Below, piece after piece: positions 1 to 29,740 of a DNA stretch of 64,000 bases. A program made the position numbers and the translations under genes. Numbering within the stretch: the first letter of the stretch is position 1; every line of letters begins with the position of its first letter. Source of the stretch: Paractinoplanes abujensis (GTDB lineage Bacteria > Actinomycetota > Actinomycetes > Mycobacteriales > Micromonosporaceae); NCBI RefSeq assembly GCF_014204895.1, contig NZ_JACHMF010000001.1, positions 1,302,001 through 1,366,000 of the forward strand. The letters run 5' to 3'. A model generated the notes under the pieces. It was given only the letters and a program-made list of their open reading frames with translations, had not been told where the DNA came from and ran no database searches.

Positions 1-467
1 GGGTCGCCGTCGATGGTCACCAGCGGCACGTCGCCGGGCAGGGCGGCCAGGGCGGGGCCGGCGCCGGCGACGGGCGCGATCACGACCAGGCCGGCCACCC
101 GCTGGTCGAGGTGGCGTTCGACGGCGTCGGCGATCGACCGCTCGTCGAGGTTGCGCACGCTGCCCACGTTGACCGCGAACCCGGTGGCCTGCGCCGCCTC
201 CTCGAACGCGGTCAGCATCGAGGCCGGCCCGTACAGGGAGGAATTCTGCGCGACGACGCCGATCACCTTGGAGGTGCCGGTGACCAGGGCGCGGGCGGCC
301 CGGTCGGGCCGGTAGCCGAGCTCGGCGATCGCGGCCTGGACCTTGAGGCGGGTCTGCTCGCTGACGTTGGGGTGCTCGTTGAGCACGCGCGACACCGTCT
401 GATGGGACACCCCCGCCAGCCGGGCGACGTCCATCATGCCCGGCGGCCGACCACGTTTGACGCTCAT
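1..467 (-). CDS. LacI-family transcriptional regulator, 3' end cut by the window edge
   Basis: The N-terminal 155 residues are visible. They begin with a LacI-type helix-turn-helix (MMDVARLAGVSHQTVSRVLN, about residues 11-30) and the hinge region (ELGYRPDRAARAL), then enter the periplasmic-binding-protein-like effector domain (VIGVVAQNSSLYGP). The ATG at 467 places the helix-turn-helix ten residues in, as is normal for the family, although no strong ribosome-binding site precedes it. The C-terminal half of the sensor domain lies outside the window. Its target is unknown. The next gene upstream is a secreted cutinase-like hydrolase transcribed in the same direction, but a strong hairpin separates them, so a shared transcript is unlikely. 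Confidence 0.9.
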   Translation of the reverse strand, partial: MSVKRGRPPGMMDVARLAGVSHQTVSRVLNEHPNVSEQTRLKVQAAIAELGYRPDRAARALVTGTSKVIGVVAQNSSLYGPASMLTAFEEAAQATGFAVNVGSVRNLDERSIADAVERHLDQRVAGLVVIAPVAGAGPALAALPGDVPLVTIDGD

Positions 468-491
468 CCGCGGCAGGATAGCCGCACGAGG

Positions 492-517
492 CCGGCCGGC
501 GGGGATCCGCCGGCCGG
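492..517 (-). terminator. GC-rich hairpin downstream of the cutinase-like gene
   Basis: Perfect 11-bp inverted repeat, CCGGCCGGCGG and its complement, around a GGAT loop. It starts 11 bp beyond the stop of the secreted hydrolase gene and ends before the LacI start. There is no T-tract, which is common for actinobacterial terminators. It is the only strong structure in this 60-bp gap. Confidence 0.6.
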
Positions 518-527
518 TCGCGCCGGG

Positions 528-1400
528 TCAGACGAGGGGACAGGTGTTGCGGTAGTCCGAGATGGAGGTGCTCGCCGGGCCCGGGCAGATGAACTGGTCG
601 TAGCGGGTGTCGTTGTCGACGAAGCGCTTCAGCCAGGCCACCGCGAGGCGGGCGGTGAACGTGTTGACGGTCTGCGGGAAGAAGTGCGAGGCGTTGTTGA
701 GCTCCAGGTACGCCTTCTCCGAGGCCGACGGGATGCTGTTGTAGAACGGGATCGAATGCGACGCGACGGGTGCGACGGTGTCGCTCTCGCCGCCGATGAT
801 CAGGGTCGGCACCCGCAGCGTGGACCAGGTCTTGGTCGTGTTCCACGGGGCCAGCGGCACCGCCGCCTGCAGCGACGGGCGGGTGCGGGCGGCCTCGAGG
901 CTCCCGCCGCCACCCATCGAGTGACCGGCCACGGCCAGCCGGGTGGTGTCGATGCGCGATCGCACCGAGCTCGACCGGGTCAGGTAGTCGAGCGCGGCCA
1001 GCAGCTGGTCGCCGCGCGAGCCGGGCTGGTCGTAGATGGTGTTGGTCTCGATGCCGATCACCACGAAGCCGTGCGACGCGATGCGCGGGCCCAGCCACGA
1101 CAGGCTCGACCAGCGGGCGGTGAAGCCGGGGGAGATGGCGACCGCTCCGAAGGTGCCGTCGCTGGTGGTCGTCGGGTAGTAGATCGTGCCGCCCCCGAAA
1201 CCGGTGACCAGCGAGGACACGTTCTCGGTGGCCACGCTGTAGGGTCCGCGGCTCGCGTCGAGCGCGGCGGTGGTGGGGGCCGGGCCCCGCTCGTACGGGT
1301 TGGCGGCGGCCTGGGCGGGCGCCGCGCCCAGCCCGACGGCCAGTGCCGCGGCCGCGGCCAGCGCGAGGACGAATCGGCGTGGTTTGCGAAGTTGCTGCAC
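528..1400 (-). CDS. Secreted polyester hydrolase of the cutinase / PET-hydrolase family
   Basis: A 290-residue alpha/beta hydrolase with an N-terminal signal peptide (about residues 1-31, ending AQA). The mature part begins NPYERGP and follows the Thermobifida cutinase and leaf-branch-compost cutinase pattern throughout: [56 protein letters not shown], and VDNDTRY near the end. Visible catalytic residues are Ser161, Asp207 and His239. Oxyanion candidates are Phe93 and Met162, the clamp Trp is Trp186, and a C-terminal disulfide is likely between Cys272 and Cys287. The extra active-site disulfide of the Ideonella enzyme is absent, so this is a type I (cutinase-like) member. Known relatives hydrolyse cutin-like and synthetic polyesters outside the cell; activity on PET is inference. 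The GTG start at 1400 has GGGAG upstream. The gene is divergent from the LuxR regulator. Confidence 0.93.
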
Positions 1401-1567
1401 CTGACACGCTCCCGGGGGTGGGGGATTGATGGCGGTCAGTGTTTGTGCGGCTCCGCGCGGTCCGCATCGGTAGAACCACCGGCCTTGTAACAGGCTGGAA
1501 ATTTCATCTGCCGAAAAGTCCGGGTCGATGCCTTCCCCGCCGTGGCCTGCGGCGACAGACTCGCGAC

Positions 1568-4384
1568 ATGGTTAGTGCACGTCAAGTGCAAAATTCCTTC
1601 CCGTACGGCCGGCAGGCACCGCTGTCGGCGATCGGCGAGCTGCTCACGGCCGCGAAGAACGGGCGTGGCGGCGCGCTGGTGCTGGCGGGCGGCCCGGGCG
1701 AGGGCCGCACGACGCTGTTGCGCGCGGCCGGCCCGAGCCCGCTGACGCTTCTCGTCGAGGGGCACGCCGACGAGTCGGGACTCGCGCTGTCCGGGCTCCA
1801 GCGTCTGCTCGAACCCCTGGCCGGGCTCGTCGGAGATCTGCCGGCCCGGCAGCGGGAGCCGCTGGACGACGTGATCGCCGGACGCCCGCCCGCGCCCGGC
1901 CCGCTGACGCTCGGAGTGAGTGTGCTGGCCCTGCTCCGCCGGGCTGCCCGCCGGGGCCCGCTGCTCCTGCTGATCGACGACGCCGACCGCCTCGACCCGC
2001 AGTCGTGGCAGCAGTTCCGCCTGGTCGCTCGTCGCCTGCACAGCCTGCCCGTCGCCGTGCTGGCCACCGTGACCGCCGACGACCGGGGCCTGGCCCTGGC
2101 GACCGGCCTGCCGCTGATCCGGTTGACGCCGTTGGACGAAACCGCGAGCCGGGCTCTGCTGCGCCGCTGCGCGCCCGATCTCGCCCCCGAGGTCGCGGCC
2201 GCCCTGACCGACCTGGCCGCGGGCCATCCCGGCGCCCTGACCGACCTGGCCGGCGCGCTGACCCCGGCCCAGCGGCGCGGCTTCGCTGCCCCACCCTGCG
2301 CTCTGCCACCGGGCAGCACCCTCCGCCGGCACGGCAACGCCCTGATGTCCGTTCTGCCGGCGGTCACCCGCCGCCTGTTGCTCCTGGCCGCCACCGACCC
2401 GGACGCCACGCCGGCCGACCTCGTGAGGGCCGCGAACCTGCGCGTCGATGCCCATCCGAGCGAGCCCGCGCACTCAAGCGAGCCCGCGCACCTGAGCAAG
2501 CCCGCGCAGTCGAGCGACCCCGCGCATCCCGGCGACGACGTGCGCCCACCTGAGCGCGCGACGATGGGCGACGGTGCGCGCCTGGCCGACCTCGAACCCG
2601 CCGAGCGAGCGGGCCTCATCGAGGTGTCGCCGAGCGGCGTCCGGTTCACGCCGGAAGTGCTGCGGACGGTCGTCTACGGCGACGCCCCGATCGCCCTGCG
2701 CCACGAAGCCCACGCGAGCCTGGCCGCTGCCCTGGCGGAGCGTGGTCACCGCCTGGGAGCCCTGCTGCATCGGGCCGCGGTGACCACCGGCGCCGACGAC
2801 GACCTGGCGCGCGACCTGCTCGAAGCGGCCCAGGACGCGCCGTCCCCCGAAGCCTTCCGCGCCCGTCGCTACGCGGCCGGCCTGAGCTCCGATCCGCGGA
2901 CGACAGCCGAGGCCGCGCTGGCCGCCGCCCGCAGCGCCCTGGCCGCGGGCCGTCCGCGCGACGCCGCGCCCCTGCTGCGGCGGGCGGGTCACGCAACCGG
3001 GCAGGCCGTCGTCCGGGCCCGGGCGCGGGCCTTGATCGCCGAGCTGCACGCGCGGGGCGCGCCCGCCGAGTCGCGCGACACGCTGCTCGGCGTGGCCGCG
3101 GAGACGATGTCGACCGACCCCGCGGCCGCCCTCGACGCGCTGGTGGTGGCAGGTGAGGCTTGCGGCCGTACGGGGGAACCGGGTTTGTTTCCTCCACTGG
3201 CGAGACAGGCCGCCGACCGGTGCCGCGACGGCCGCCCGGGCACGGAGCTGGCGGTGCAGCAGGTGCTGGGGGTGGCGGATCTGCTCACCGGCGACGAGGA
3301 GGGTGGTTTCGGGCATCTGCGCGAGGTCGTGCGGCTGGGGGAACGCAGCGGCGACGCGACCGCGCTGATCCGGGCGGCCGACGCGGGCATCGTGGTCGGC
3401 GACGACGACCGGGCCGCGCGGCTGGCCGGGCGGGCCGTGACGCTGGCCCGCGAGATCGGGGACGCGTCGCTGGTGCCGCGGGCGCTCGAGGTGGCCGCGT
3501 ACGCGGAACTGGCCGCGGGCCGCCACGACGCGGCGCACGAGCACGCGCTGGACGGGGCCGCGACCGCCCGCCACAGCGACCTGGCCGACGCCCACCTGGC
3601 CCTGCTCGGGTTGCTGGCCGCGTTCCGGGGTGACGCCGCGACGGCCCGCGAGCATGCCGCGGGGTCGCCGCTGGAGGACTGGTCGGAGGCGCTGCTCGAC
3701 CTGGTCGAGGGGGAACCGGCTCGCGCGGCTCAGCGGCTGGTGCGGGTGGCCCGTACGGGATCGATGGTCTTGCGGGTGGCCGTGGCCCCGCACCTGGTCG
3801 AGACCACCGGCGCCGGCAACGACGTCTTCGACCGGTGGGCCGGGCGGACCGGACGGCCCGGCTGGCTGGCGCTGCGCGGCCGCTGCCGGGCGCTGACCGA
3901 CATCGCGGCCGCCGACGACTGGTTCCGCGAGGCGCTGGGCTGGCACGAACGCGACGCCGACGGCGGGTACGCGCGGGCCCACACCCAGTTGCTCTACGGC
4001 CGGCACCTGCGCCGCCGGCGCCGCCCGGCCGAGGCGCGCGAGCATCTGCGCCGGGCCGTGGAGACGTTCCGCCGTTTCGACGCCGGTCCCTGGGCCGGGC
4101 TGGCCGCCCGGGAGCTGCGGGCGGCGGGGGAGCGGATCGGCCCGGTGGGCCGCGCCCCGCTCACCGCCCAGCAGGAGCGGATCGCGGAGCTGGTGGCCGA
4201 GGGGGCGACCAACCGTGAGGTGGCCCAGCAGCTGCACCTGAGCCCCCGCACGATCGATCATCACCTGCGCAACGTGTTCGCCCGGCTCGGCGTGCGGTCG
4301 CGCACCGAACTGGCCCGCCTAGATCTTTTCCACGGTGACCGGGGTGACCAGTTTGCGATCCCGGTCGCCGACCACGCGCAGTGA
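1568..4384 (+). CDS. Large LuxR-family (LAL-type) ATPase transcriptional regulator
   Basis: A 938-residue protein from the ATG at 1568; an upstream in-frame ATG at 1439 is unlikely because the added residues look non-coding. An AAA/NACHT-like ATPase domain starts near residue 20 ([13 protein letters not shown]) with a Walker A-like GGPGEGRTT at about 41-49, where the usual Lys is Arg. A Walker B-like LLLIDDADR lies near residue 137. A low-complexity Ser-Glu-Pro-Ala-His stretch occurs at about 297-320. Helical, TPR-like repeats follow, then a C-terminal LuxR helix-turn-helix at about 865-915 ([25 protein letters not shown]). The last ~22 residues run past the normal family end into the antisense of the GH3 gene, a 66-bp tail-to-tail overlap. 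Target genes are unknown; the divergent cutinase-like gene is the obvious candidate. Confidence 0.88.
2456..2525 (+). repeat. Four imperfect 18-bp in-frame tandem repeats inside the LuxR gene
   Basis: Four copies of an 18-bp unit (core GAGCCCGCGCACCTGAGC) encode a Ser-Glu-Pro-Ala-His-Ser-like hexapeptide. They lie between the ATPase and helical parts, probably as a flexible linker. The period is a multiple of three, so copy-number changes would keep the frame. Confidence 0.75.
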
Positions 4385-6670
4385 GCCGGTCAGCCGCACC
4401 CGGCCCGTGAGCGGCAGGTCGGCCGCGGACGTGCCGACCAGCACGTCCAGGTCGCCGGGTTCGACGATCCGGGAGAGGTCGCGCCCGGTGAAGGCCGTCC
4501 GGTCGGCGTGCACCGTGAAGGTCACGTCCTTGGCCTCGCCCGCCTCCAGTGGCACCCGCACGAACCCGGTCAGCTGCTTCACCGGCCGGGTCACCTGGGC
4601 CACCAGGTCCTTCAGGTACAGCTGCACGACCTCGTCACCGGCGCGCGAGCCGGTGTTGCGCACCCGTACGGTCACCATGAACTCGCCGTCGGTCGGCACC
4701 TCGGCCGCACTGATCCGCAGGTCGTCCACCTCGAAGGTGGTGTAGGAGCGGCCGTGCCCGAAGGCGTACAGCGGCGCCGGGTCCAGGTTGCTCACGCCCG
4801 TGTTCTCGGCGCCCAGCGAGGGCAGCAGGTAGGTGCTGGGCTGGCCGCCCGGGTGCCGCGGGATCTGCACGGGCAGCTTGCCGCCCGGGTTGACGCGGCC
4901 GGTCAGCACGCCCGCGATCGCGGCCGCGCCCTCCTCGCCCGGCATGAACGCCTGCACCAGCCCGGCCGCGCGGGAGGCGAACTTCCCGAGCGCGTACGGG
5001 CGTCCGGAGACCACGACCACGACGACCGGCTTGCCCGTGGCCAGCAGTTCCTCGATCAGCTCGGCCTGCACGCCGGGCAGTGTGAGGTCCTCGGCGTCGC
5101 AGCCCTCGCCCGAGGTGCCGTGCCCGAACAGGCCGGCCAGGTCGCCCACCATCGCCACGGTCACGTCGGCACCGCGGGCCGCCTCGACCGCAGCCGCGAA
5201 ACCGCTCCGGTCGTCGCCGATCACCGCGCAGCCCTGTTCGTGCACGACCTCGGTGCCGGAAAGGGCAGACTTCAGCGCGTCGACGGTGGTTGGCACGTCG
5301 ATGCCGAGCCCGGCGTCCGGATACCGCGGCAGCACGTGGTTGGGGAAGGCGTAGCAACCCATGAACGTACGGGGGTCGGCCGCGGCCGGCCCGACGACGG
5401 CCACCGTGCCGAGGCCCGCGGCCAGCGGCAGGGCCGTGCCCGCGTCGAGCAGCACGATCGAGCGTTCGGCCATCTCGCGGGCCAGCGCGCGGTTCGCCGC
5501 GGAGTCGAGCTCGGTGCTTTCGGCGGCCGCGACGGATTTCTCGGGCGTCCAGCCGGCGTCCAGCAGGCCCAGCTCGACCTTCTGGGTCAACACGCGGCGG
5601 GCGGCCCGGTCGATCAGCTCCTCGCTCGCCTTGCCGATCAGGCCGGGGCCGAAGCCCAGCGTGTCGGGCAGTTCGACGTCGATGCCCGCGGTCAGCGACT
5701 GCAGGCCGGCGTCGTCCATGTCCTCGGCCACGTGGTGGGTGCTGGCCAGGAACGGCACCGCCCAGTAGTCGGAGACGACCGTGCCGGTGAAGCCCCAGCG
5801 GTCGCGCAGCAGCTCGGTGAACAGCCACGGGTCGGCCACCGCGGGCAGGCCGTCGATGTCCGAGTAGGAGTTCATCACCGACCCGGCCCCGGCCTCGCGG
5901 ATCGCGGTCTCGAACGTCGGCAGGATGACGTCGAGCAGCTCGCGCCGGCCCATCGGCACCGGGCCGTGGTTGCGGGCGCCGCGCGACGCCGAGTACCCGG
6001 CGAAGTGCTTGAGCGTCGCGATCACGCCGGAGCTCTGCAGACCCCGGACGTAGCCCGCGCCCAGCAGCGCCACCAGGTACGGGTCCTCGCCGATGGTCTC
6101 CTCGACCCGGCCCCAGCGGTAGTCGCGCACCACGTCGAGCACAGGGGACAGGCCCTGGTGCACGCCCACGGCGGCCATGTCACGGCCGATCGCGGCGGCC
6201 ATCCGCTCGACCAGGTCGGGGTCGAAGGTGGCGCCCCAGGCGATCGCGGCCGGATAGACCGTGGCGCCGAAGGTGGTGAACCCGGTCAGGCACTCCTCGT
6301 GCACGATGGCGGGAATCCTCAAGCGCGAGTTGGCCAGGACGATGTGCTGCTGACGAACGACCTCGGCGGCGCCTTGGACGGCAGTGAGGGGGTAGCTTCC
6401 GTAGACGCGGGTCAGGTGCCCGAGCCCGTCCCGGCTGGCCTCTTCCAGGGGTATCGTGCCAGAAGCCGCGAAAACGTCCTGCATAGGAGCGACGTTGAGG
6501 GTCTCGTCGGGGTCGGTCTGCTCGTCGTCCTGCATGTCGTTGCCGACCCAGCGGCTGCCCAGCTGGCCGAGCTTCTCCTCGGGAGTCATCGCGGCGAGCA
6601 GCGCGTCGACGCGTTCGGCGACGGGTAGCGCCGGGTCCTGCCATGGCTTGTGTGCCGGTTCTGTCGTCAC
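4319..6670 (-). CDS. Glycoside hydrolase family 3 beta-glycosidase (beta-glucosidase or beta-xylosidase)
   Basis: A 783-residue, cytoplasmic (no signal peptide) GH3 enzyme with the usual three parts: a TIM barrel (about 10-370), an alpha/beta sandwich (about 395-610, with the HGTSGEG loop) and a C-terminal fibronectin-III-like domain (about 665-755). The KHFAGY motif lies at 221-226, and the nucleophile is predicted to be Asp301 in VVSDYW. The GTG start has a good GAGGAG ribosome-binding site. It is divergent from the ABC transporter genes and shares palindromic sites with them, so it probably cleaves oligosaccharides imported by that system. The layout resembles the Streptomyces bxl (beta-xylosidase) locus. 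Substrate (xylo- versus gluco-oligosaccharide) cannot be read from the sequence. Confidence 0.93.
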   Translation of the reverse strand: MTTEPAHKPWQDPALPVAERVDALLAAMTPEEKLGQLGSRWVGNDMQDDEQTDPDETLNVAPMQDVFAASGTIPLEEASRDGLGHLTRVYGSYPLTAVQGAAEVVRQQHIVLANSRLRIPAIVHEECLTGFTTFGATVYPAAIAWGATFDPDLVERMAAAIGRDMAAVGVHQGLSPVLDVVRDYRWGRVEETIGEDPYLVALLGAGYVRGLQSSGVIATLKHFAGYSASRGARNHGPVPMGRRELLDVILPTFETAIREAGAGSVMNSYSDIDGLPAVADPWLFTELLRDRWGFTGTVVSDYWAVPFLASTHHVAEDMDDAGLQSLTAGIDVELPDTLGFGPGLIGKASEELIDRAARRVLTQKVELGLLDAGWTPEKSVAAAESTELDSAANRALAREMAERSIVLLDAGTALPLAAGLGTVAVVGPAAADPRTFMGCYAFPNHVLPRYPDAGLGIDVPTTVDALKSALSGTEVVHEQGCAVIGDDRSGFAAAVEAARGADVTVAMVGDLAGLFGHGTSGEGCDAEDLTLPGVQAELIEELLATGKPVVVVVVSGRPYALGKFASRAAGLVQAFMPGEEGAAAIAGVLTGRVNPGGKLPVQIPRHPGGQPSTYLLPSLGAENTGVSNLDPAPLYAFGHGRSYTTFEVDDLRISAAEVPTDGEFMVTVRVRNTGSRAGDEVVQLYLKDLVAQVTRPVKQLTGFVRVPLEAGEAKDVTFTVHADRTAFTGRDLSRIVEPGDLDVLVGTSAADLPLTGRVRLTGSLRVVGDRDRKLVTPVTVEKI

Positions 6671-29634: not shown

Positions 29635-29740
29635 GAACCGGAGCGTACCCGCAGATGTAACACGGAAATAGTTGTCGGGGCTCTTGCATGCGACGGAATC
29701 GGTGAAATGATCGGGTCCACAAGCCTGAAGGAGTTGAGTC

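Follow-up and report, generated by a model that had tools for sequence, protein, structure and literature searches.

A cutinase-family esterase gene of Paractinoplanes abujensis, the divergent gene of a LAL-type regulator and a candidate 19-bp operator

The locus and its features

The window, i.e. the whole stretch of 64,000 nucleotides analysed here (contig NZ_JACHMF010000001.1, positions 1,302,001 to 1,366,000 of the forward strand), belongs to a genome of 9.33 Mb present as a single contig. It carries, close to its first position, a gene for a cutinase-like hydrolase and, divergent from it, a gene for a LAL-type regulator. The features dealt with below, in the coordinates of the window, are as follows:

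3-467, minus strand: LacI-family regulator, continuing outside the window (L118 9454-10467; Pfam)
468..526, minus strand: hairpin just past the cutinase stop, possible terminator (fold of 466-530)
528..1400, minus strand: secreted cutinase/PET-hydrolase-like alpha/beta hydrolase of the LipA type (ORF, PF12740, predicted structure)
672..686, minus strand: His239-Phe240-Phe241-Pro242-Gln243, the catalytic His and the clade-marking HFFPQ at subsite II (sequence, alignment)
780..782, minus strand: codon of the catalytic Asp207 (sequence)
840..842, minus strand: codon of Asn187, after the clamp Trp186 (sequence)
918..920, minus strand: codon of the nucleophile Ser161 (sequence)
1122..1124, minus strand: codon of Phe93, oxyanion/clamp position (sequence)
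1308..1400, minus strand: signal peptide, residues about 1-31 (RRFVL...AQA), twin-arginine-like (predicted, by eye)
1464..1482, minus strand: candidate LAL operator CCGGTGGTTCTACCGATGC, with 3 mismatches to the consensus CCGGTGATTTCRCCGATGC (upstream alignment, scans)
1498..1505, no strand assigned: conserved palindrome GAAATTTC of the divergent promoter region (scan of 175 loci)
1568..4384, plus strand: LAL-type LuxR-family regulator, LipR-like by context, divergent from the cutinase (Pfam, linkage)
1576..1590, no strand assigned: TGCAC-N5-GTGCA inverted repeat over the first LAL codons (scan of 175 loci)

The hairpin, with a folding energy of -43.7 kcal/mol (z -3.86; equalled by one of 200 shuffled sequences), separates the cutinase stop from the LacI-family gene, which starts 60 bp further on the same strand. 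A glycoside hydrolase family 3 gene (4319-6670, minus strand) is convergent with the LAL gene.

The cutinase and its probable activity

The reading frame at 528-1400 is genuine, starting with GTG and comprising 290 codons for 290 amino acids according to the ORF list. Its product—referred to here as the cutinase, with residues in precursor numbering—scores 418.7 bits against the Pfam PETase family PF12740, which, compared with the cut-off of 28, makes the family match one beyond chance. The type and the cleavage site of its signal peptide are predicted from the sequence: the alignments of the solved relatives with the cutinase begin at residue 32-33, and a TAT signal has been reported for the Streptomyces coelicolor relative ScLipA (PMC11169514).

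The triad Ser161, Asp207 and His239, with the serine in its GHSMGG context, is invariant across alignment A1. The aromatic clamp, defined as Tyr/Phe-Met-Trp (PMC11219463), is represented by Phe93, Met162 and Trp186, and the subsite II pair of His and Phe (H164/F243 in LCC) is kept as His160 and Phe240. There is one Cys pair, Cys272 and Cys287, predicted to form a disulfide, and no extended beta8-alpha6 loop, the segment from His239 to Cys272 being ungapped against 7YKO, 7YKQ, PET40 and 8EU0. Both the family profile and the fold agree with type I of the Joo classes. The preliminary description, which had assigned the protein to the Thermobifida/LCC-type polyester hydrolases, is thereby confirmed in its family call, and all the residues it named—Phe93, Ser161, Trp186, Asn187, Asp207, His239, Cys272 and Cys287—occupy the positions given for them. 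The mesophilic source it supposed is plausible, as fits the genus Actinoplanes.

The AlphaFold2 model, built from a 32-sequence alignment, has a mean pLDDT of 81.3 and a pTM of 0.79, residues 1-39, 273-275 and 285-290 being poorly modelled. Its top Foldseek match is the Thermomonospora curvata structure 7YKQ (72% identity), followed by ancestral PETases, 1JFR and PET40, and the VIA-align Z scores, over 50 listed entries that include 7YKQ, 8ETX, PET40 and Cut190, range from 42.6 to 39.5. Based on these matches, the cutinase fold is that of the known family. Modelling and alignment had both been proposed as checks in the preliminary description; the former returned the PET-hydrolase/cutinase fold, and the latter, envisaged as pointing possibly to a broader lipase subfamily, found the type I cleft residues kept.

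Concerning its closest relatives, the best named homologues (best 120 of 5753) come from Actinoplanes/Paractinoplanes, among them P0014 of P. brasiliensis, with 92% identity across 90% of the query length; a copy in P. lichenicola (L033) is 93% identical, and the genome itself holds two further close family copies with 66% and 68% identity. The T. curvata hydrolases (7YKO/7YKP/7YKQ) share the fold with 71-72% identity (Foldseek), and F62, S130, D176 and H208 of the Tcur proteins correspond to the cutinase numbering minus 31; their source is thermophilic. In Actinoplanes sp. DH11, the orthologue of the cutinase (L062/L113) is 76-79% identical. The PET-active enzyme DP043 of that strain, the crystal structure of which has been solved (PMC12455559), may well be 9O9W, an alpha/beta-hydrolase of strain DH11 with 54% identity to the cutinase; no identical PDB chain was found among the top matches for the DH11 proteins L113, L114 and L115.

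The cutinase differs from other members of the family just after the catalytic His, having HFFPQ where BhrPETase, TfCut2 and Cut190 have F-A-P-N. Phe241 and Gln243, which were overlooked in the preliminary description, are the real difference of its clade from BhrPETase/LCC, TfCut2 and Cut190, and the alignments identify them (HFFPQ, not HFAPN) as the clade marker, common to the T. curvata structures 7YKO and 7YKQ. The FF doublet is found in 80/80 loci from named genomes; in those of L033-L116 that gave a match (84 loci), it is accompanied by Gln243 in 71 and by Asn in ten.

The cutinase is most likely a serine esterase of the type I PET-hydrolase/cutinase group that is secreted from the cell. 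By analogy with the family, Ser161, His239 and Asp207 would effect hydrolysis via an acyl-enzyme, the oxyanion hole would be formed by the main-chain amides of Phe93 and Met162, and Phe93 and Trp186 would clamp the substrate. The most likely substrates would be extracellular polyesters or lipids of natural origin, synthetic polyesters being attacked promiscuously. Alternatively, it could be a lipase acting on lipids or short esters with practically negligible polyester activity, which we consider rather unlikely. Several of the named close relatives (best 120 of 5753) bear a lipase annotation, and the cutinase stays below the curated cut-off of the NCBIfam BHET hydrolase equivalog NF051441 (482 vs 520 bits), but the type I cleft residues are retained and the model is 72% identical to a structure from T. 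curvata, two hydrolases of which, Tcur1278 and Tcur0390, with F62 in the oxyanion hole, have been reported to hydrolyse PCL and PET nanoparticles (PMC4231364). The Streptomyces lipases point in both directions, S2LipA having roughened PET film, whereas ScLipA and S92LipA had limited to no effect on it (PMC11169514). The lipase from A. mediterranei, in which the residue equivalent to Phe93 is likewise Phe, was described as significantly less active on PET/PLA, its authors suspecting the Phe (PMC7851449); because of this low activity in an enzyme with the same Phe, the PET activity of the cutinase may be weak.

The divergent regulator and the 19-bp element

The LAL gene encodes a protein of 938 amino acids with an AAA_16 domain and a C-terminal GerE (LuxR) domain (Pfam); at E<=1e-10, it has matches at four other places in the genome, the strongest scoring 93 bits compared with 1987 for the protein itself. 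In the same genus, a LAL homologue lies on the divergent side in 18 of the 20 loci with an HFF-type cutinase, in 17 of them within 600 bp, the distances being those between the ends of the aligned stretches. Among the 80 HFF loci of named genomes, the homologue is present in the flank of 42 (within 600 bp in 33) and missing from that of 38, the order in the 42 being divergent in 21, upstream-tandem in 13 and downstream-tandem in eight. No LAL accompanies any of the 15 same-genus paralogue loci, for which about 4.5 kb of either flank was covered. The genomes in which an HFF cutinase has no LAL nearby mostly hold one elsewhere (9/10 tested, E<=1e-40), and so do 5/6 tested of the f31 genomes counted as lacking it; in three of these six (G129, G255 and G281), the LAL is on the same contig, 5-8 kb from the cutinase, and was missed because it lies beyond the 4.5-kb flanks.

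Among the closest known systems is lipA-lipR of Streptomyces, in which LipR has been reported to activate lipA directly via conserved upstream sequences, both in S. exfoliatus and in S. coelicolor (review PMC12134079). In both systems, a secreted lipase of the family is contiguous with a LuxR-family regulator, the two genes being, however, divergent here and joined in the lipAR operon in Streptomyces. The S. exfoliatus lipR has a TTA codon and is bldA-dependent, whereas neither the LAL nor the cutinase gene contains this codon. By context, the cutinase-LAL arrangement can be viewed as the Actinoplanes form of the lipA-lipR pair, with LAL as the putative orthologue of LipR.

The alignment of the upstream regions yielded the 19-bp consensus given above; the element of the cutinase at 1464-1482 has its first base 82 bp before the start codon. 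At up to 3 mismatches and within 350 bp upstream, the element is found in 100/103 HFF-clade loci, which is a description rather than a test, since the consensus was taken from that clade. Outside the clade, it precedes 11/13 cutinase-family loci whose fetched flank holds a LAL and 1/57 of those without (Fisher's exact p 4e-10, relatedness being ignored and 3 of the 57 being repeats); of 2302 control windows taken from these loci, none reaches 3 mismatches and seven reach 4. It should be noted that the scan left out loci for which less than 90 bp of sequence was available upstream, and that nine of the 175 cutinase-match loci repeat another (L164, L165, L176, L033, L036, L035, L050, L062 and L113) and were kept in the linkage, motif and element counts, three of them among the 57 LAL-less loci and none among the 13.

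The sole exception without a flanking LAL, L154 with 3 mismatches, and the weak matches L135 and L140, with 5 mismatches, belong to the three genomes mentioned above with a LAL 5-8 kb away. The elements of these LAL-holding f31 genomes are poor, with 3 to 6 or more mismatches; in G238, the LAL is on another contig, and the cutinase-family gene (L136) does not rank with the better matches. Before the cutinase-family gene of four f41 genomes that lack a LAL (E<=1e-40), the element is missing even when 5 mismatches are allowed. In the genome of P. abujensis, 33 sites were found at up to 3 mismatches, compared with two for the reversed pattern; with 3 mismatches itself, the element of the cutinase is one of these 33, and the candidate therefore rests on homology of position. 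One further such match in the window (29696-29714, minus strand), 80 bp before an ORF of the aldehyde dehydrogenase family, is probably due to chance.

The element was also sought, at up to 1 mismatch, throughout 60 genomes of relatives, giving 32 sites, compared with one for the reversed pattern. An intact cutinase follows 14 of them. One more (L204, G004:C50) stands, itself intact and with a LAL, before a cutinase remnant of residues 242-289, apparently a decayed copy. Eight sites from as many same-genus genomes (L210, L213, L214, L216, L220, L222, L225 and L226) lie 72-76 bp before a gene for a secreted protein, seven of these proteins having 221-224 amino acids and the frame of L214 ending after 87 codons; all four of the eight that were tested belong to Lipase_2 (PF01674, Pfam). 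Four of the lipase sites (L213, L214, L220 and L225) adjoin a LAL homologue, in genomes (G017, G006, G001 and G012) the best cutinase matches of which are 68% identical or less. For eight examined of the remaining nine sites, neither a cutinase nor a class-2 lipase was seen among the downstream ORFs. One of these eight, a one-mismatch element (L228; G005:C14, 136293-136311), is situated beside a LAL homologue with neither gene type recognised and may indicate a third target.

The cutinase is linked to the LAL gene, and the element co-occurs with the regulator. The element is probably the operator of LAL, as judged from sequence comparison, and the divergent LAL would probably bind it at 1464-1482 and activate the cutinase promoter. 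We regard it as unlikely that the element instead serves another regulator or is a promoter core that has travelled with the gene. The evidence of linkage and co-occurrence is correlational, the element is kept in 40/40 scanned HFF loci whose fetched flank lacks a LAL, and the covariation test, in which L113, L062 and identical 200-bp regions were removed (113 to 109), was negative; yet the element accompanies cutinases across different gene orders and is poor or missing upstream of the LAL-free paralogues. That element and regulator form a pair, and that the element is not simply a co-inherited promoter, is indicated best by the lipase sites that adjoin a LAL where the genome has no close cutinase copy.

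The reading of the locus as a secreted cutinase-family esterase governed by a LipR-like LAL through the 19-bp candidate operator is thus one that we hold with good, though not full, confidence. A wider proposal, slightly favoured at present, is that secreted ester hydrolases may be switched throughout the actinomycetes by one LipR-type regulator with one 19-bp operator; the operator would stay with PETase-family cutinases while the gene order around the regulator shifts, and in Actinoplanes genomes lacking the cutinase the regulator could stand beside an unrelated class-2 lipase with the same operator. The regulator with its candidate operator may matter more than the enzyme. According to a Streptomyces study from 2024, the regulation and induction of PET-hydrolysing enzymes are little documented (PMC11169514); the text of that article mentions neither LipR nor LuxR, and a link between LipR and PET hydrolases was not found in the titles or abstract openings of the open-licence PMC articles matched. 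Should the 19-bp element be the LipR site, the native induction of cutinases would be predictable from DNA and directly testable, and the element would offer a sequence handle for co-regulated polymer- or lipid-degrading enzymes. Concerning the own genome, the loci of 20 of the 33 sites were examined, and the 19 besides that of the cutinase had no counterpart of the relatives' class-2 lipase among the longest ORFs starting 20-250 bp downstream, so that no regulon can be named.

Further features were considered, some of which were set aside. A dyad symmetry of the element was opposed by the covariation test, positions 4 and 11 varying the wrong way. The palindrome GAAATTTC is present in 30/41 divergent HFF loci and in 0/134 other loci scanned. 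The TGCAC-N5-GTGCA repeat occurs in 35/41 divergent HFF loci even though their LAL proteins have diverged, compared with 0/63 other HFF and 2/71 non-HFF loci; since it is tied in this way to the divergent order, and overlaps the LAL codons, it was set aside as the operator and is possibly an autoregulatory site. The LacI-type neighbour was rejected as the cutinase regulator, being in the flank of only 8/109 loci (6 genomes, two pairs coming from the same genome); over 155 residues, its homologues are 92-99% identical in L004, L005, L006, L033, L034 and L035 and about 55% identical in L011 and L037.

Positions 93 and 187 and the paralogues

The preliminary description had regarded Phe93 and Asn187 as unusual and the cleft as one that might bind polyester differently from the known PET hydrolases; although Tyr occupies position 93 in LCC variants, TfCut2 and IsPETase, and His follows the clamp Trp in the ancestral PETase 8EU0, the pair is found together in 7YKO, 7YKQ, PET40, 1JFR and Cut190 and is common in relatives, so that the claim of rarity is refuted and a peculiar cleft is hardly credible.

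Among the query and its best 120 of 5753 homologues, position 93 is Phe in 84 and Tyr in 37, and position 187 is Asn in 113, Asp in seven and His in one; these figures, in which the query is counted twice as P0001 is identical to it, describe the close relatives, since only the best 120 were counted. Of 116 loci, some duplicated, 52 have Phe with Asn and 52 Tyr with Asn. Besides HFFPQ, the T. curvata entries 7YKO and 7YKQ, both titled as mutants, share with the cutinase Phe at position 93 and Asn at 187. According to the structure alignments, the same two residues are carried by PET40 (8A2C) and LipA from S. exfoliatus (1JFR), which have the same fold and 65-69% identity and differ from the cutinase at subsite II, with HFAPN and HFTPN, respectively; the latter is presumably the S. 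exfoliatus member of the lipA-lipR lipase family. Cut190 from the thermophilic Saccharomonospora viridis, about 60-62% identical, also differs in having HFAPN for HFFPQ. The report on Cut190 gives F106, the clamp W201 and an engineered N202H directly after it (PMC11219463), from which it follows that the wild type has Phe and Asn. PHL7, efficient on amorphous PET, likewise has Phe (F63), and its F63Y variant was only slightly less active (PMC10076380). The cutinase is an ordinary member of a known family; it adds one Actinoplanes representative to a well-sampled group, and its supposedly odd residues give no ground for priority.

A paralogue in the same genome (L002, C1:6924554-6925387) exhibits PWH and HSAP, i.e. 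His after the clamp Trp and a Ser replacing the subsite II Phe, at the position of S238 in IsPETase, which amounts to a mixed type I/IsPETase-like pattern. Ser at this position is found in 10/15 of the same-genus paralogue loci.
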